Below are positions 7,390 through 13,926 of a DNA stretch of 61,249 nucleotides, in pieces. The position numbers and the translations under genes are program-made. How positions within the stretch are numbered: the first letter of the stretch is position 1; the number at the start of each line of letters is the position of its first letter. This stretch comes from Lachnospiraceae bacterium. Lineage in GTDB: Bacteria > Bacillota > Clostridia > Lachnospirales > Lachnospiraceae. Below the pieces are notes generated by a model. It searched no databases. It saw only the letters and a list, made by a program, of their open reading frames with translations, and was not told where the DNA came from. The stretch covers positions 1-61,249 of the forward strand of contig JAFUZJ010000051.1 of NCBI GenBank assembly GCA_017476665.1, given 5' to 3'.

Positions 7390-7419
7390 GATATTACCTC
7401 ACCTTATTATCTACTTTCT

Positions 7420-9834: not shown

Positions 9835-9871
9835 CGCATTTTTCTATTTACAATCTTTTTGTTATAAAGAA

Positions 9872-9943
9872 TACCCGCACCCCGAATCGAACGGGGACAT
9901 TGAGATTAGAAGTCTCATGCTCTCTCCATTAAGCCATGCGGGC
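9872..9943 (-). tRNA. tRNA-Arg(TCT)
   Basis: Cloverleaf of 72 bases: acceptor GCCCGCA/TGCGGGT (G-U at the end pair), anticodon loop CTTCTAA, T loop TTCGATT, discriminator A. This is the last unit of the array in transcription order. Confidence 0.9.
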
Positions 9944-9947
9944 ATGA

Positions 9948-10019
9948 CAGGCGTTGCGGGAATCGAACCCGCGTCTCCGGAGTCAGAGTCCGGTGTATTC
10001 ACCTCTATACAAAACGCCA
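9948..10019 (-). tRNA. tRNA-Gln(CTG)
   Basis: Acceptor TGGCGTT/AACGCCT with a U-U end pair, anticodon arm CCGGA-CTCTGAC-TCCGG, and discriminator G as usual for tRNA-Gln. It reads CAG. Confidence 0.88.
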
Positions 10020-10020
10020 G

Positions 10021-10114
10021 TGTCGATGCGGGGACTCGAACCCCAACTTTGCGGGTCGTAGCCGCACGGTCTATCCAAAGAAACGTTCTTTGTTTCTTTT
10101 TAGCCCACACCGAC
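10021..10114 (-). tRNA. tRNA-Arg(ACG) with a hairpin inserted in the D loop
   Basis: Acceptor GTCGGTG/CATCGAC, anticodon arm TGCGG-CTACGAC-CCGCA, normal T arm, discriminator A; 94 bases long. The D loop is swollen by a hairpin with arms AAAGAAAC and GTTTCTTT (forward 10079-10101). Removing it restores an ordinary D arm. Confidence 0.8.
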
Positions 10115-10119
10115 ATAAA

Positions 10120-10191
10120 AGTTCCCAGAGCGAATCGAACGCCCATCTGCTGGGTTGCAGCCAGCCGCCTTCACCTTTGGACTATGGGAAC
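10120..10191 (-). tRNA. tRNA-Cys(GCA)
   Basis: Canonical 72-base cloverleaf: acceptor GTTCCCA/TGGGAAC, anticodon arm GCTGG-CTGCAAC-CCAGC, and U73, the known cysteine identity base. Confidence 0.9.
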
Positions 10192-10197
10192 ATATAA

Positions 10198-10291
10198 CAG
10201 GCACTGTTGGAATTGAACCAACGTTTCCATGAGAAATGCTTGCATTTCTCTTAGTCAATGTCCGGCGCACTCACCATTGTGCTAAGTGCCA
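10198..10291 (-). tRNA. tRNA-Gln(TTG)-like with a hairpin in the anticodon stem
   Basis: Acceptor TGGCACT/AGTGCCT with U-U end pair and G73 mirror the tRNA-Gln(CTG) of this array. The anticodon side reads CCGGA-CATTGAC, giving anticodon TTG but A instead of U at position 33. The 3' strand of the anticodon stem is split after its first base by a hairpin with 9-bp arms GAGAAATGC/GCATTTCTC. Whether the mature RNA decodes is doubtful. Confidence 0.65.
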
Positions 10292-10295
10292 ATAG

Positions 10296-10384
10296 TTGTG
10301 ATGGAGAGAATCGAACTCTCATTGTCAGAGCTGCTATGCAGCTTTTCGTATCAGACGGATTTCCTACCATTGAAAGACATCACA
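10296..10384 (-). tRNA. tRNA-like unit, possibly Ile(GAT), with a hairpin in the anticodon arm
   Basis: Acceptor TGTGATG/CATCACA, D arm and T arm (GAGAG-TTCGATT-CTCTC) are clear, discriminator A. The anticodon side reads TCCGT-CTGATAC, like the Ile(TAT) unit of this array. After one stem base comes a hairpin AGCTGC/GCAGCT; rejoining around it gives a four-pair stem. Specificity is uncertain. Confidence 0.5.
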
Positions 10385-10385
10385 G

Positions 10386-10478
10386 CGCAGCTCCTGGGAC
10401 TTGAACCCAGACACCGAAAATAACCCGGCTACTCAGAGATTAGCAATCTCCTGCCTTACCAGTTAGGCTTAGAACTGC
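10386..10478 (-). tRNA. tRNA-Ser(GCT)
   Basis: Class II tRNA with long variable arm, anticodon arm GGAGA-TTGCTAA-TCTCT, acceptor GCAGTTC/GAGCTGC and G73. It begins two bases after the upstream unit's mirror end, so spacers here are almost absent. Confidence 0.88.
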
Positions 10479-10482
10479 ATGG

Positions 10483-10555
10483 GGTGACTGGAGGGACTCG
10501 AACCCGTAACCGGCGGAACCACAATCCGCTGCTCTACCATTTGAGCTACAGCCAC
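10483..10555 (-). tRNA. tRNA-His(GTG)
   Basis: Acceptor GTGGCTG/CAGTCAC, anticodon arm GCGGA-TTGTGGT-TCCGC, C73 as in tRNA-His. The base before the 5' end is T, so G-1 is not encoded. The T stem has two mismatches. Confidence 0.85.
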
Positions 10556-10557
10556 AG

Positions 10558-10647
10558 CGTCCGCAGGAGGACTTGAACCACCACACCGATTCTACCGGCT
10601 ACTCCCCGCTTTCCAAGCGGGTGCCTTACCATTAGGCTTATGCGGAC
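10558..10647 (-). tRNA. tRNA-Ser(GGA)
   Basis: Class II unit: acceptor GTCCGCA/TGCGGAC, anticodon arm CCCGC-TTGGAAA-GCGGG, long variable arm, G73. One mismatch in the T stem. Confidence 0.88.
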
Positions 10648-10658
10648 ATATATTAAAA

Positions 10659-10763
10659 CACCGTCTGAGAGATTCGAACTCTCACGCCGTTACCGGCTAC
10701 ACTGTACAAAAGACTTGCAAGCAAGTCTTTGAGACAGGCGGGCTACCATTACCCCAAGACGGC
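10659..10763 (-). tRNA. Class II tRNA-like unit with a hairpin over the anticodon loop
   Basis: Acceptor GCCGTCT/AGACGGT, G73 and a serine-like long variable arm are clear. The anticodon region starts CCTGT-CTCAAAG and closes with ACAG, but a hairpin with 10-bp arms AAAGACTTGC/GCAAGTCTTT lies between and borrows anticodon-loop bases. A literal anticodon CAA (Leu) conflicts with the serine-like body, so specificity is open. Confidence 0.55.
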
Positions 10764-10769
10764 ATACAA

Positions 10770-10841
10770 CAGACCAGCATGGACTCGAACCATGTCCTGC
10801 GGTTTTGGAGACCGCCGTGCTTCCATTGACACCACTGACCT
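10770..10841 (-). tRNA. tRNA-Trp(CCA)
   Basis: Anticodon arm GCGGT-CTCCAAA-ACCGC, acceptor AGGTCAG/CTGGTCT with two wobble pairs, G73 as usual for tRNA-Trp. Confidence 0.9.
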
Positions 10842-10845
10842 ATAG

Positions 10846-10951
10846 CACTGAGATGAGGGAAGCAGAAATAAATTTCTGCTGAACCCCCGGAACCCTGACC
10901 GGGTTCTCCGATTTTCAAGACCGGTGCATTCAGCCTCTCTGCCATCTCAGC
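10846..10951 (-). tRNA. tRNA-Ser(TGA) with a hairpin in the T loop
   Basis: Acceptor GCTGAGA/TCTCAGT, G73, anticodon arm CCGGT-CTTGAAA-ATCGG and a long variable arm fit tRNA-Ser. The T loop starts TTC and is then interrupted by a hairpin with 9-bp arms AGCAGAAAT/ATTTCTGCT (forward 10860-10879). Its 5' end abuts the stop codon of the XRE gene, so the mRNA and tRNA are probably one transcript cut by RNase P. Confidence 0.75.
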
Positions 10952-11176
10952 TTACAAATCCTTCGATACAACTATGTCATCCATCCTAACCCCAAATATT
11001 TCAGCAAGTATAAGCAGATTATCGATCGTGGGAAGATTCTTTCCATTTATCCACTTATATACTGGGTTTGGACTTGCGAATCCCATTATGGTCTGTATTT
11101 CTTTCACAGATATCCCCGTCAGCTCTTTTAGCTCGTTTATCCTTTCTCCCGTTGCTTTCACGTCTACCACAGGCAT
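10952..11176 (-). CDS. Small XRE-family (Cro/CI) DNA-binding protein inside the tRNA array
   Basis: 74 aa from the ATG at 11176, eight bases after GGAGG. The central part (ISVKEIQTIMGFASPNPVYKW) is a helix-turn-helix of the Cro/CI type, followed by a helix typical of small phage-like repressors (LLILAEIFGVRMDDIV). Its stop touches the 5' end of tRNA-Ser(TGA), and it is preceded by a terminator hairpin, a structured leader and a promoter (11193-11428). It may regulate the array or a lost mobile element; targets are unknown. Confidence 0.85.
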   Translation of the reverse strand: MPVVDVKATGERINELKELTGISVKEIQTIMGFASPNPVYKWINGKNLPTIDNLLILAEIFGVRMDDIVVSKDL

Positions 11177-11192
11177 CGCTCTTTCCTCCAAT

Positions 11193-11229
11193 AAAAAAAC
11201 CTTTTCGAACTCGACGAAATCCGAAAAGG
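11193..11229 (-). terminator. Intrinsic terminator/attenuator just before the XRE gene
   Basis: Arms CCTTTTCG (11200-11207) and CGAAAAGG (11222-11229) form an 8-bp stem, followed on the minus strand by seven Ts (11193-11199), then at once by the XRE ribosome site. The position between a promoter and its gene suggests regulated read-through rather than only the end of the upstream unit. Confidence 0.75.
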
Positions 11230-11260
11230 CTGCCCGACAGATATGGATATATAGCTATCT

Positions 11261-11368
11261 TCAAACTCTTAACCTCTCAGATTTCATGCGCACTCTAACA
11301 GACCATCTGCTAATTCGATGGCTGCGCTGTGATGAACATGAAATTTGACTGAAGTTAAAGTTTTTCAT
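11261..11368 (-). CDS. Possible 35-residue leader peptide, Arg/Ser-rich
   Basis: An ATG at 11368 follows AAAGG at about ten bases and opens a 35-codon frame ending at 11261. The peptide has seven Arg and eight Ser residues. It lies between the promoter (11400-11428) and the attenuator (11193-11229) and overlaps a folded element (11281-11344) with stems ATTTCATG/CATGAAAT, GCGCA/TGCGC and CCATC/GATGG. This is the layout of a translation-sensing leader, but coding is not proved. Confidence 0.35.
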   Translation of the reverse strand: MKNFNFSQISCSSQRSHRISRWSVRVRMKSERLRV

Positions 11369-11399
11369 CTCTGCTTTTCCTTTCCGTTTTGATATGTTT

Positions 11400-11428
11400 A
11401 TTATAATCGCAATAATTCCTTTTGTCAT
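11400..11428 (-). promoter_or_regulatory. Internal promoter of the tRNA array
   Basis: Minus-strand ATGACA (11423-11428) and TATAAT (11400-11405) are spaced by 17 bases, about 25 bases before the leader ORF. It would drive the XRE gene and the twelve downstream tRNA units. Confidence 0.65.
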
Positions 11429-11447
11429 TCTACCCTGGGTAGAAAAA

Positions 11448-11542
11448 TCGGGACATCCGGAATCGAACCGAAAACCTGCCGCGTATAAGACGGATGCTCT
11501 GCCAAAGGAAATCTTTGATTTCCTTTTTTGCGCTATGTCCCA
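11448..11542 (-). tRNA. tRNA-Ile(TAT) with a hairpin in the D loop
   Basis: Acceptor TGGGACA/TGTCCCG (U-G end pair), discriminator A, anticodon side TCCGT-CTTATAC-GCGGC giving anticodon TAT for AUA codons. Most bacteria read AUA with a modified CAT anticodon instead. The D loop carries a hairpin with 10-bp arms AAAGGAAATC/GATTTCCTTT (11505-11527); without it the D arm is ordinary. Confidence 0.75.
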
Positions 11543-11543
11543 A

Positions 11544-11616
11544 TGCCCGCACGGGGGCTTGAACCCCGAACCTTCAGATTAAGAGTCCGCTGCTCTACCA
11601 TTTGAGCTATACAGGC
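11544..11616 (-). tRNA. tRNA-Lys(CTT)
   Basis: Acceptor GCCTGTA/TGCGGGC, anticodon loop CTCTTAA, A73. The anticodon stem has one mismatch (GCGGA/TCTGA). Confidence 0.87.
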
Positions 11617-11637
11617 GTATCTGCAGTATCCTGCAAG

Positions 11638-11709
11638 TGCGCCTGGAGGGAGTCGAACCCACGATATACGGGTTAAAAGCCCGTTGCCATACCGCTTGGC
11701 TACAAGCGC
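11638..11709 (-). tRNA. tRNA-Lys(TTT)
   Basis: Acceptor GCGCTTG/CAGGCGC, anticodon arm ACGGG-CTTTTAA-CCCGT, A73. Canonical except for one T-stem mismatch. Confidence 0.9.
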
Positions 11710-11787
11710 ATATCTTTGATAATCTTCTGTTTTATGCTTATCTTCTGTTTTCGTTTCATCTTTCAAAATCTCCTCTGTACTTGATAG

Positions 11788-11861
11788 TGACGCAGGCAGG
11801 ATTTGAACCCGCAAAATGCGTATCTTGAGTACGCCGTGTCTTCCAGTTGCACCACTGCGCC
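11788..11861 (-). tRNA. tRNA-Leu(CAA) with a short variable region
   Basis: Acceptor GGCGCAG/CTGCGTC, anticodon arm GCGTA-CTCAAGA-TACGC, A73. The variable region is only about five bases, whereas bacterial tRNA-Leu is normally class II with a long arm. Confidence 0.82.
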
Positions 11862-11862
11862 G

Positions 11863-11937
11863 TACTCGCGATGGGATTTGAACCCATACTGTATCGGTTC
11901 TTAGCCGATTCTCTCTGCCAAATTGGAGTACGCGAGC
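11863..11937 (-). tRNA. tRNA-Leu(AAG) with a short variable region
   Basis: Acceptor GCTCGCG/CGCGAGT, anticodon arm ATCGG-CTAAGAA-CCGAT, A73. Class I shape despite a leucine anticodon. Confidence 0.82.
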
Positions 11938-11938
11938 G

Positions 11939-12013
11939 TACTCACGGCGGGATTTGAACCCGCACTGTCACGGTTCTGAGCCGTGTCCCTCTGCCAAGTT
12001 GGGGTACGTGAGC
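11939..12013 (-). tRNA. tRNA-Leu(CAG) with a short variable region
   Basis: Acceptor GCTCACG/CGTGAGT, anticodon arm CACGG-CTCAGAA-CCGTG, A73. Very close in body to the Leu(AAG) unit one base away, so the two probably arose by duplication. Confidence 0.84.
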
Positions 12014-12058
12014 ATAACGCGAACAAGCAGCCCTCAAACTAATGCCACATTGTCCTGA

Positions 12059-12133
12059 TACCCCCGGCAAGATTCGAACTTGCAACCCCGGCGTCTTAAG
12101 CGCCGTGCCTCTGCCATATTGGACCACGAGGGC
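12059..12133 (-). tRNA. tRNA-Leu(TAA) with a short variable region
   Basis: Acceptor GCCCTCG/CGGGGGT, anticodon arm CGGCG-CTTAAGA-CGCCG, A73, short variable region. This is the fourth consecutive leucine unit. Confidence 0.84.
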
Positions 12134-12205
12134 ATGATATTCCGTTATTCAGTTGCAAATATAATCGTAGTCGTAGCATTTTCATTCCTCCATATAATAT
12201 CTCGT

Positions 12206-12697
12206 TTATTTGCTTATCCTGTCTGCTATGGAACTTGCCGCATAGGAATCCGGTTTCACCCGGCAGTCATATCCACATGTCCTTATCCATCCTACCAAAC
12301 CCGGGATCAGTTCCTTAGTCTTTCCCTTTTCGGACCATCCGGCATCTATGTGTACAGAAAGCACCGTATTTTCCCTCAGTCCCTGATACTTTTCTCCCTC
12401 CAGCTTTTCTGCAAGATCCATGATGACAGACAAACTTCTGGACGTTTCCTCATTCAGTTTCCTGGCCACATCACTGATTCTTGGTATCATGGTTACCTCA
12501 TAAAAGAATATCCCGCCATGCCCTTCCTTGTATGCAACGATCACACTCACCACTTTGGTCTTGTCAAAATTCTGTGAGTCAGTCCCCACTGTAACCTGCA
12601 GTTCACCATCAAAGGTCTTGGTTCTGTTATGGAATTCAAGAATCTTCTCAGCGATCTGATCCATATTCAGTTTTCCATAAGTCTGACTCCGAAACAT
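12206..12697 (-). CDS. YkuK-like RNase H-fold protein (DUF458) inside the tRNA array
   Basis: 163 aa from the ATG at 12697, seven bases after AAAGGAG; an ATG at 12715 overlaps that ribosome site and is unlikely. The N-terminus (MFRSQTYGKLNMDQIAEKI) and the block TVGTDSQNF near 43 match the YkuK family, which has a ribonuclease H-like fold with a conserved Asp after the first strand. Function in the family is unproved; related proteins occur in phages and Firmicutes. A tRNA unit lies just upstream and tRNA-Leu(TAA) downstream, so it is probably co-transcribed and might act on structured RNA; that is inference. Confidence 0.8.
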   Translation of the reverse strand: MFRSQTYGKLNMDQIAEKILEFHNRTKTFDGELQVTVGTDSQNFDKTKVVSVIVAYKEGHGGIFFYEVTMIPRISDVARKLNEETSRSLSVIMDLAEKLEGEKYQGLRENTVLSVHIDAGWSEKGKTKELIPGLVGWIRTCGYDCRVKPDSYAASSIADRISK

Positions 12698-12723
12698 GAC
12701 CGGACTCCTTTCCATAAATTAAG

Positions 12724-12792
12724 CTCCCTCCCCGGGAATCGAACCCGGATACCGTGATTAACCAGTCCATCCTACCGCCCCATGAGAAGGAA
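12724..12792 (-). tRNA. tRNA-like unit, specificity unresolved
   Basis: A perfect T arm (CCGGG-TTCGATT-CCCGG) and acceptor TTCCTTC/GGAGGGA are present, but the anticodon arm folds only as ACTG-CGGT with an 8-base loop. It contains GTTAA, so Asn(GTT) or Leu(TAA) are both imaginable. It may be decayed. Confidence 0.4.
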
Positions 12793-12795
12793 TCG

Positions 12796-12855
12796 TTGAA
12801 GTCATAGGGTCCGATATTCTTGTAGATCAGATGGCTGCCATTACCCTATGCTTCA
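12796..12855 (-). other. Folded spacer between tRNA units
   Basis: The 60 bases between tRNA-Asp and the next unit fold as a three-way junction. A 13-bp closing stem (TGAAGCATAGGGT against ACCCTATG-A-CTTCA, one bulge) holds hairpins ATGG-CAG-CCAT and TCTGAT/ATCGGA. It is not a cloverleaf. Confidence 0.45.
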
Positions 12856-12856
12856 G

Positions 12857-12949
12857 CGCCCTGTACGGGATTTGAACCCGTGATCTCCAAAACTGCCTTG
12901 CAGTTTTTGTGACAAGGCAGGCGGGGACGGCCATCTCCCCTAACAGGGC
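12857..12949 (-). tRNA. tRNA-Asp(GTC)-like with an insertion in the anticodon arm
   Basis: Acceptor GCCCTGT/ACAGGGC, G73 and normal T arm. The anticodon side reads CTGCC-TTGTCAC (anticodon GTC), then extra bases before GGCAG. A hairpin with arms AAAACTGC/GCAGTTTT overlaps the 3' stem, so two folds compete. A Thr(TGT) reading is the alternative. Confidence 0.6.
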
Positions 12950-12955
12950 GTGAAG

Positions 12956-13038
12956 TGGACCGGGGAGGACTCGAACCTCCGGTGTTTCAGTGTGACGGGT
13001 TTACAGCCCGCTGCCCTCGCCGCTAGGCATACCGATCC
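12956..13038 (-). tRNA. tRNA-Tyr(GTA)
   Basis: Class II tyrosine type: acceptor GGATCGG/CCGGTCC, D stem TGCC/GGCA, anticodon arm GCGGG-CTGTAAA-CCCGT, medium variable arm, A73. Confidence 0.9.
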
Positions 13039-13149
13039 ATGTCTTCTCAACTATTTTTGTTTGTCAAATGCTTTTAAGTTTGTTGGGGCCAGGGGAAGCG
13101 CCAACTTCCTGAGCCCCTATTTGTATGAAATTGTTTCCCTATAGGGAAG

Positions 13150-13275
13150 TACTCCGTGCCGGATTTGAACCGAGCATCTCCGCCTTGAGAGGTCGCACGA
13201 GGTCCGGTGGACCTCGGAATGCGACGACCGTAATGAAATGAAGACCGACGGCGTAGCCAATTTGCCTAACGGAGC
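13150..13275 (-). tRNA. tRNA-like unit with a very large insertion, anticodon unresolved
   Basis: Acceptor GCTCCGT/ACGGAGT, D arm GGC/GCC and T arm CTCGG-TTCAAAT-CCGGC are visible, A73. About 75 bases lie between the D and T arms, including a hairpin GTCGCA/TGCGAC carrying CGAGGTCC/GGACCTCG (forward 13191-13224). CTCAAGG could be a leucine CAA loop, but no good stem supports it. Confidence 0.45.
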
Positions 13276-13280
13276 ATAAA

Positions 13281-13353
13281 TAGCACCTGCGGGAATTGAA
13301 CCCGTCTTTTCCAGCTTGAAGGGCTGGCGTCCTAGCCTTTAGACCAAGGTGCC
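13281..13353 (-). tRNA. tRNA-Glu(TTC)
   Basis: Acceptor GGCACCT/AGGTGCT, anticodon arm CCAGC-CCTTCAA-GCTGG, A73. Position 33 is C rather than the near-universal U. Confidence 0.82.
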
Positions 13354-13356
13354 AAG

Positions 13357-13485
13357 TGGGTGGTAACGGTACCGACCCATTCTCAAAAGGATTTGTTAAT
13401 CCTTTAGGATCTTCCAGATCCTTTGGTTCTGTCAGACCACCGCTTTCACAAAGCGGCCTTATCGCTTTTTGTAAGCTAACCACCC
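13357..13485 (-). tRNA. tRNA-like unit with GTG anticodon and a huge variable region
   Basis: Acceptor GGGTGGT/ACCACCC, D arm, anticodon arm CCGCT-TTGTGAA-AGCGG and a weak T arm (AATGG-GTCGGTA-CCGTT). About 56 bases between anticodon and T arms hold hairpins AGGATCT/AGATCCT and AAAGGATT/AATCCTTT. GTG would be His, but a canonical tRNA-His(GTG) exists at 10483 and C73 is absent here. This is the first unit of the array. Confidence 0.45.
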
Positions 13486-13549
13486 ATTGTTCCTTAAAGT
13501 GGCTACTTCTAAATCGTTCATGTCCCATTGTCTTCTCCTCCTGTTATTC

Positions 13550-13653
13550 GCAAAAGCGTCTGCTTCGCATCCGACGCCGCTTTGCGGCTCATTCTTTTGC
13601 TCATATACGCTCGGTCGAAACCAAATGCCCCGCTTCGCGGGTCGCTTGGTTTC
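13550..13653 (-). other. Two folded modules leading into the tRNA array
   Basis: Module one: GAAACCAA/TTGGTTTC (13617-13653) encloses CCCGC-TTC-GCGGG. Module two: GCAAAAG/CTTTTGC (13550-13600) encloses CGTC-TGC-TTC-GCA-GACG and GCCGC-TTT-GCGGC. On the RNA strand two of the three triloops are GAA closed by C-G (GCGAAGC), an unusually stable mini-hairpin. The modules sit between the 13667-13710 terminator and the first tRNA-like unit. Confidence 0.55.
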
Positions 13654-13666
13654 CTTCATCACTAAT

Positions 13667-13737: not shown

Positions 13738-13926
13738 TCATCCGCCATTTCTGCACCTGGGTTGTCTGATCATAGCATGATATTTTTCTTCCAATTTGGA
13801 TATAAGGGTATAATCATAGCGCTCTAAATCCATAATATAGGCAAAATTTGCGCGCAGGAAATCAAGGCTCATAAACAGTGAGCTTAGATGATTCATATTC
13901 TGCTTTTGAACTCTTGTCTTCTGCAT
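13738..13926 (-). CDS. Unknown 62-residue protein at the head of the array transcript
   Basis: The ATG at 13926 has AGGAG seven bases upstream. The predicted protein is helical and hydrophobic in the middle (LFMSLDFLRANFAYIMDL), with a basic, Arg/Asn/Gly-ending tail. No family recognised. It lies between the strong promoter/leader hairpin (13977-14065) and the terminator before the tRNAs. Confidence 0.5.
   Translation of the reverse strand: MQKTRVQKQNMNHLSSLFMSLDFLRANFAYIMDLERYDYTLISKLEEKYHAMIRQPRCRNGG

Follow-up and report, generated by a model that had tools for sequence, protein, structure and literature searches.

Hairpin insertions in the genes of a tRNA array of a Lachnospiraceae bacterium, including a copy of a dispersed palindromic element

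Rickettsia palindromic elements are short palindromes that enter protein genes and are tolerated there. RPE-1, for example, is present in the tRNA pseudouridine synthase gene of R. conorii (PMC3733652). Insertions within tRNA genes, some of them near the anticodon, are known from archaeal and eukaryotic tRNA introns (PMC4090602), and plasmids and phages carry units of 20–30 consecutive tRNA genes with an embedded gene in a mobile-element setting (PMC12803027, PMC5966550). Such tRNA arrays have been termed a putative antidefence system; differences in their D, anticodon and variable arms are described, and the available parts of that source do not mention inserted hairpins (PMC12803027). Among the matches listed in the open-access literature we found no paper on hairpin inserts in the genes of bacterial tRNA arrays. 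Here, we describe such an array in a contig of a Lachnospiraceae bacterium (JAFUZJ010000051.1, assembly GCA_017476665.1), analysed as one stretch of 61,249 nt (the window). Nine of its about 25 tRNA units contain extra hairpins, which are real insertions at a few recurring sites, and the insert in Glu(CTC) is a copy of family A, a 55-nt covarying palindromic element with matches in many other genomes.

The window is contig C21 of the draft assembly G000 (3.64 Mb, 72 contigs). The best array match in the plasmid collection was pRUMAL01 of R. albus 7, and the host is therefore probably Ruminococcus-like. The count of about 25 units, on the minus strand, combines 15 tRNAs called by ARAGORN with the nine insert-bearing units and one Asn-type unit recognised from alignments. 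ARAGORN called none of the nine, i.e., Arg(ACG) (10020–10116), Gln(TTG) (10197–10294), Ile(GAT) (10296–10385), a Leu/Ser-type unit (10658–10764), Ser(TGA) (10846–10952), Ile(TAT) (11447–11541), Asp (12857–12950), Glu(CTC) (13150–13278) and Phe (13357–13486). The covariance-model check proposed in the first-pass annotation was run with Rfam RF00005, which at the gathering score found 19 tRNAs in the window; four of the nine units passed (10198, 10296, 10659, 10877), and Asp was added in the whole-genome search. The same annotation had noticed extra palindromes with perfect arms in at least nine of about 25 units. Both statements were confirmed: all nine named units carry them, and the 3.6 kb of the array hold eight perfect hairpins with an arm of at least 8 bp (2.21/kb), all eight of which are inserts. 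Sampled stretches of the same genome contained 78 such hairpins in 400 kb (0.20/kb), making the array ~11 times denser, and order-1 Markov shuffles of the array (n = 200) had a mean of 0.26 and a maximum of 2.

Syntenic arrays occur in five other genomes, labelled L032 in G045, L033 and L034 in G018, L013/L352 in G011, L393 in G501 and L391 in G484, and a second array, L009, lies on contig C2 of the same genome. The tRNA order of L009 is that of the window, and its units are mostly free of hairpins. Every window insert has an empty site in L009 or in the relatives, for the unit at 10658 via a less certain SerCGA-type counterpart, and the hairpins are thus extra, inserted blocks, as had been proposed. 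Alignments of 16 orthologous groups show whole-block inserts of 18 nt in Ile(GAT), 22 nt in Gln(TTG) and ~23 nt in Ile(TAT); at other inserts, 1–4 adjoining native nucleotides were lost or altered.

9871..13486, minus strand: tRNA array, about 25 tRNA units and small open reading frames (ORFs), a cluster additional to the other tRNA genes of the genome
10077..10099, minus strand: Arg(ACG) hairpin AAAGAAAC/GTTTCTTT, D-loop, immediately 5′ of GG; common to L009, absent in L032 and L033
10231..10252, minus strand: Gln(TTG) hairpin insert of 22 nt, anticodon stem at ~39/40; L032 and L033 empty
10329..10343, minus strand: Ile(GAT) hairpin, part of the 18-nt insert, anticodon stem at ~39/40; L009 and L032 empty
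10709..10730, minus strand: hairpin AAAGACTTG..CAAGTCTTT in the unit 10658–10764, 3′ side of the anticodon loop
10861..10880, minus strand: Ser(TGA) hairpin, T-loop; L009 and L033 empty
11504..11526, minus strand: Ile(TAT) 10-bp hairpin, D-loop, immediately 5′ of GG; L009, L032, L391 and L393 empty
12889..12907, minus strand: Asp hairpin, anticodon stem at ~39/40, able to pair alternatively with the 5′ strand of the anticodon arm; L009 empty
13191..13245, minus strand: Glu(CTC) palindromic element of family A (model R1, 73.7 bits), D/anticodon junction; L009, L032, L391 and L393 empty, L033 and L034 also filled
13386..13422, minus strand: Phe, two neighbouring hairpins, variable loop; L009, L032, L033 and L034 empty
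13450..13469, minus strand: Phe insert AAAAGCG..CGCTTT, D-loop; L009, L032, L033 and L034 empty

Apart from the Glu insert, the window hairpins are mostly A+T-rich. The D-loop inserts of Ile(TAT), Arg(ACG) and Phe lie directly 5′ of the D-loop GG (Phe has T for the second G), those of Ile(GAT), Gln(TTG) and Asp share the anticodon-stem position ~39/40, and the remaining sites are ~38/39, the T-loop, the variable loop (double) and ~27, with one case each. The ten sites, placed by eye from alignments, form six coincident pairs, where uniform placement would give 0.62 (six were reached in 109 of 200,000 simulations), and none lies in an acceptor, D or T stem (p = 0.003). The first-pass annotation has to be amended for Phe, which holds three hairpins, and for Glu, whose insert sits at the D/anticodon junction. 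Over all arrays including the window, with shared inserts counted once, we placed at least 17 inserts in the T-loop, ~7 in the D-loop, ~7 at 38–40, ~5 at 26–28, one in the variable loop and none in the acceptor, D or T stems, by eye; two Lys units and other units of L096 were left out as unclear, and the tally is skewed to units that are still recognisable. The Phe unit has the non-canonical T-loop GTCGGTA instead of TTCRANN, in the window and in its orthologs in L009, L032, L033 and L034.

Hairpins with arms of at least 8 bp per kb number 2.21 in the window array, 0.43 in L009, 1.10 in L032, 3.10 in L033, 2.71 in L034 and 3.18 in L352; further values are 2.31 for L096, 1.80 for L126, 0.32 for L037 of Ruminococcus albus, 0.75 for L354 (a 12-kb stretch), 0.74 for L393 and 0 for L391. 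The insert load is therefore sporadic among similar arrays, from heavy (L033, L352, window) to clean (L391), which favours repeated recent insertion and argues against a fixed role of the hairpins in array function. The search for the same insert positions in related genomes, likewise proposed beforehand, showed the same position classes and individual inserts that are sporadic, with empty sites. The Arg(ACG) hairpin is present in both the window and L009, L009 has one hairpin of its own (in a Met-type unit), and within G018 the Pro T-loop, the Lys T-loop and the Asn site are filled in one array and empty in the other. With the helix-turn-helix protein of the array as a marker, 29 loci were examined; three had 6–10 tRNAs, and in the 3.2 kb covered of these three further arrays of the family no hairpin was seen inside an ARAGORN tRNA.

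Family A is the one family with many copies. In an alignment of 11 copies the outer stem GTCGCA/TGCGAC is fixed, whereas the letters of the inner stem change in step: all 175 pair cells are intact, and eight of the 16 pairs have changed on both sides, in 23 such cells. None of 500 shuffles reached this covariation score, and slid partners pair in 22–40% of cells. Thus, the earlier statement that the shape is kept while the letters change holds for this family, and so does the test for compensatory changes in the arms. The covariance model R1 gave nine matches in six of 138 genomes of the genus and, in two overlapping samples, was positive in 72 of 392 genomes of the order and 21 of 391 of the class, each positive genome of the order sample having between 1 and 14 matches, with at most 14 candidates scored in each. 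In a phage collection one record had a match; in a plasmid collection there was one partial match at E 0.09. Loose pattern scans for family A hit at least 118 stretches in genome contigs and 84 in viral contigs, mostly by chance, and only matches with the 8-bp inner hairpin were kept.

As a short dispersed palindrome with a stable hairpin, covarying arms and several copies per genome, family A resembles repetitive extragenic palindromic (REP) sequences and bacterial interspersed mosaic elements (BIME) (PMC3733652). It differs from them in lacking a constant GTAG/CGTC tag, CGTC being present in some copies and by eye replaced in others (e.g., GGTCGTCGC, GGTCGGCGC), as well as in its link to tRNA loops and its insertion inside RNA genes. 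Compared with the Rickettsia elements, short palindromes again enter genes and are tolerated, but here it is the tRNA genes of arrays that are entered, and the same sites are used by several unrelated families. Dispersal as in REP and BIME was found for family A and not for the Ile(TAT) hairpin. The core of the latter including its loop, the only short hairpin searched genome-wide (up to one mismatch; 10 rows in total, five for the control pattern), had no second exact copy, its best other match having one mismatch; with the loop included, there was nothing within this limit but one partial look-alike. R1 matched only Glu(CTC) in the window at E up to 0.001, and one spreading element for all hairpins is therefore rejected. 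The argument of the first-pass annotation, from differing sequences to the absence of a spreading element, is nevertheless partly wrong: the Glu insert belongs to a dispersed family, and three further families reside in tRNA genes of related arrays. An element confined to tRNAs was also considered. Exact family cores were found almost only in arrays within samples of 351 kb (G018) and 477 kb (G000), where the short core TGTGCGACC had two matches outside arrays, but the covariance model found copies outside tRNAs and the idea was rejected.

The further families occur in relatives only. Family B (~31 nt) occupies T-loops of L033, forward in Glu(TTC) and reverse in Met, Leu(CAA) and Arg(ACG); about three T-loop nucleotides are retained and the rest replaced, so the reverse copies lack the TTC of the T-loop. 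Family C (~85–90 nt, with several hairpins) is present in two units of L033, Asn and Ile(TAT), and in L013 in Ile(TAT); in both Ile(TAT) units it deletes part of the anticodon loop. These two Ile(TAT) copies have different anticodon-stem backgrounds, one of them empty in G501 and G484; compensatory evolution of the stem after insertion was considered for L013 vs L033 and dropped, because L393 and L391 of these genomes have the L033 stem without the insert. In L096, from another member of the Eubacteriales, two Gln units have D-loop hairpins whose arms differ in step, and there are further T-loop inserts.

We favour, with moderate confidence, the explanation that small palindromic insertions are invading the genes of this array, which would be of the mobile-element type, the Glu(CTC) insert being a copy of the dispersed, REP-like and miniature inverted-repeat transposable element (MITE)-like family A. 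Small palindromes and hairpins of this kind would enter tRNA loops repeatedly, by insertion at the DNA level at the loop side of a stem-loop while the tRNA gene is folded as a single strand. Insertion would often cost or alter 1–4 adjoining nucleotides, and inserts would survive where the acceptor, D and T stems remain intact or where the tRNA is dispensable. The unique short hairpins of the window presumably arose in the same way as family A, and single-strand hairpin targeting would be common to both.

The setting agrees with a mobile element. A dense tRNA cluster is present in the window and in L009, and the latter adjoins ORFs that by eye resemble VirD4/TraG, UmuC and DNA ligase, i.e., conjugation- and repair-like genes; among the scanned proteins of the window's own flanks there were defence genes and no conjugation genes. 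For the link between family A and tRNA loops, the fairer measure is proximity to a T-loop motif, which lies at most 10 nt 5′ of the element in 14 of 70 distinct copies vs 1.2 expected from the same flanks, and in 10 of 60 without the model-building copies. After excision of the element, ARAGORN recognised a restored tRNA spanning the junction in 22 of 82 copies vs 2 of 82 for shifted cuts, and two more restored tRNAs are clear by eye (Pro in L033, His in L325). In the T-arm both orientations are seen, for family A in His of L126 and for family B in L033. The flanks of family A can form a stem of at least 6 bp in 13 of 69 copies vs 6.6 with re-paired flanks (4 of 500), which is suggestive, but only suggestive, of insertion targeted to stem-loops. 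Three copies in G018 (L357 5175, 12757 and 18842; C41) lie in repeated fragments between ordinary host genes; by eye these fragments resemble the 3′ half of tRNA-Pro, although ARAGORN finds no tRNA there, and perhaps they are a dispersed tRNA-derived repeat.

Several points weigh against this explanation. The set of tRNA-restoring copies is biased, since 21 of the 22 come from tRNA-array loci, many of them seeds or homologous arrays (L126, L187, L090); the excision was tried in up to 20 variants per copy and the control in no more than 12, odd isotypes (SeC, ???) are found among several of the restored tRNAs, and ~58 of the 82 copies lie outside any recognisable tRNA gene. The outer-stem signal is weak in subsets, with 4 vs 2.5 in the 20 tRNA copies (109 of 500) and 9 vs 4.8 in the 49 non-tRNA copies (15 of 500). 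Comparison of filled and empty sites revealed no target-site duplication such as a MITE would leave (1–4 nt being lost or changed instead), and the family A ends GTC..GAC are only partly inverted. No transposase turned up, with no search having been aimed at transposases, including Y1/RAYT (PF01797). Of the window inserts, a single one can be assigned to a family with proven dispersal.

Dispensability of the array tRNAs is a further weak point. The whole-genome search gave 68 tRNA matches; the window array and the contig of the second array account for 20 each, and the other 28 lie outside both. By ARAGORN, these 28 include Glu(CTC) and Ser(TGA) as well as Leu(CAA) and Ser(CGA), either of which would correspond to the Leu/Ser-type unit. 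An outside copy thus exists for three of the nine insert units, and none of the 28 serves Phe, Asp, Ile(GAT), Ile(TAT), Gln(TTG) or Arg(ACG). In the draft as a whole, tRNAs for Phe, Ile, Asp, His and Cys were not found outside the two arrays. L009 offers hairpin-free Phe, Asp, both Ile and Gln(TTG), leaving Arg(ACG), with the D-loop hairpin in both of its copies, as the only one without a hairpin-free copy in the assembly. The draft also gave no match to 16S rRNA, for which a control search was positive in 9 of 14 genomes. In a genome of the genus that is assembled into a single contig, 64 tRNA matches were obtained. Missing genes are therefore likely, with rRNA-linked tRNA genes probably among them, and the absences outside the arrays are probably assembly gaps. 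The array tRNAs may be redundant with chromosomal ones. As an established fact, a redundant array had to be withdrawn, given that six of the nine anticodons lack a copy outside the arrays and the draft is probably incomplete.

A wider version of the favoured explanation is put forward tentatively, as one we hold more doubtful than true: tRNA genes could be preferred landing sites for tiny structure-targeted elements, comprising families A, B, C and D and the short hairpins, on the loop side and on either strand, and some hosts or mobile elements could keep the insert-bearing tRNAs as nuclease-resistant or bait tRNAs.

That the hairpins are kept as armour or decoys we consider unlikely. Here, they would block nucleases by which defence systems attack tRNAs (anticodon nucleases, PARIS, tRNA-tail cutters), and the array would provide a mobile element with cut-proof or bait tRNAs. 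The naming of tRNA arrays as a putative antidefence system (PMC12803027) keeps this idea alive, and phage tRNAs escape tRNA-targeting defences via anticodon loop mutations (PMC10264068). Inserts at ~38–40 alter the anticodon arm of four window tRNAs, and the neighbourhood is rich in defence genes: near the array there are two AAA/RloB pairs (AbiL-like; AbiL/RloAB-type), type I methylase and specificity genes, DarTG and a TOTE-type primase-helicase. At its far side the window carries ordinary genes, e.g., AspRS- and HisRS-like synthetases. With six of nine anticodons lacking an outside copy, loss of function would be costly if nothing is missing from the assembly. In minimum-energy RNA folds the acceptor stem is retained in all nine insert units, and the insert hairpin forms in Arg, Gln, Ile(GAT), the 10658 unit, Ile(TAT), Glu and, for one of the two variable-loop hairpins, in Phe. 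However, a full cloverleaf plus hairpin is the minimum-energy fold only of the 10658 unit and roughly of Ile(TAT). The second variable-loop hairpin of Phe does not form, nor does its D-loop hairpin, whose 3′ arm pairs with the native AAAGCGG; the Ser(TGA) hairpin appears in the centroid fold only, and Asp favours an extended stem CUGCCUUG/CAAGGCAG over its insert hairpin. Gln(TTG) by eye lacks the usual T33. A role as armour also fits poorly with an insert load ranging from none to many among otherwise alike arrays, with the reverse copies in L033 that delete the T-loop TTC, and with the family C insert that takes out part of the Ile(TAT) anticodon loop in L033 and L013. A T-stem change in Ile(GAT), once considered as proof of selection on the insert form, was dropped because L032 has the window's pair there too.

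It is likewise improbable that replication errors, by template switching at stem-loops in unneeded tRNA genes, made the hairpins in place, with a mobile element only in Glu(CTC). The short hairpins are indeed all different, the bases beside the inserts at 39/40 have frequently been replaced (AT for CC in Gln, TT for CA in Asp), and the Asp insert holds CAAGGCAG, the complement of the 5′ strand of the anticodon arm. Yet by eye the arms are not copied from the flanking tRNA except in Asp, unrelated tRNAs are hit at the same positions, and several inserts are whole blocks of 18–23 nt vs a near-identical empty site. The last point bears on simple decay as well, against which the first-pass annotation had argued: point mutations do not account for entire blocks that the sister copies lack, but tRNA function may be lost after insertion, since reverse copies of family B in a relative delete the TTC of the T-loop.

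Removable introns, i.e., hairpins excised from the pre-tRNA, are very unlikely: although several inserts lie near the usual intron position 37/38 and their own stems could mark an excision unit, the sites extend to the D-, T- and variable loops, at 18–55 nt the inserts fall short of the length that a self-splicing intron of group I or II needs, and in relatives exact removal would leave short T-loops or T-loops without TTC. Compared with the archaeal and eukaryotic introns (PMC4090602), the host is a bacterium and loop nucleotides are lost; the inserts of the window and its relatives have no constant position, and their exact removal would not always give a normal tRNA.

The arrays and their surroundings contain additional features. 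A PF04308 RNaseH_like gene lies inside the array (12206–12715, minus strand) and by eye also in L032 and, shortened, in L034. Upstream of the Phe unit there is a palindrome-rich insert (13543–13656, minus strand) with the cores GCGAAGC and GCAAAGC, which is absent in L009 and has different hairpin letters in L393. Two conserved short leader-like ORFs, one of 62 aa ending in RQPRCRNGG (13741–13926, minus strand) and one of 35 aa, MKNFNFSQISCSSQRSHRISRWSVRVRMKSERLRV (~11261–11368, minus strand), are both followed by terminator-like hairpins, possibly an attenuation device sensing tRNA shortage. A small structured RNA occurs at 12793–12858 (minus strand) in the window, at 7401–7465 in L009, in G045 (L390), at 2374–2439 in L033, and in L391 and L393. 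It is closed by a 12-bp stem and has an anticodon-like arm with CUAC besides a D-arm-like hairpin, but no T-arm. In four sequences, 98.8% of 83 cells are paired and three pairs are changed on both sides, which 114 of 500 shuffles match, i.e., the covariation evidence is weak. Its model R2 matched 5 of 138 genus genomes and 1 of 200 family genomes, the one studied here. Because the copy in G501 is without the TAC loop, this RNA may not be a tRNA.

The results have consequences for the annotation and the biology of such arrays. Gene finders overlook tRNA genes of this kind, as ARAGORN did with all nine units. Furthermore, the hypothesis that mobile elements turn altered tRNAs against tRNA-cutting defences becomes testable. 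Should tRNA loops prove to be a hot spot for small palindromic elements, the arrays would record the site choice of such elements, serving as a natural recorder because the inserts have empty counterparts in sister arrays.

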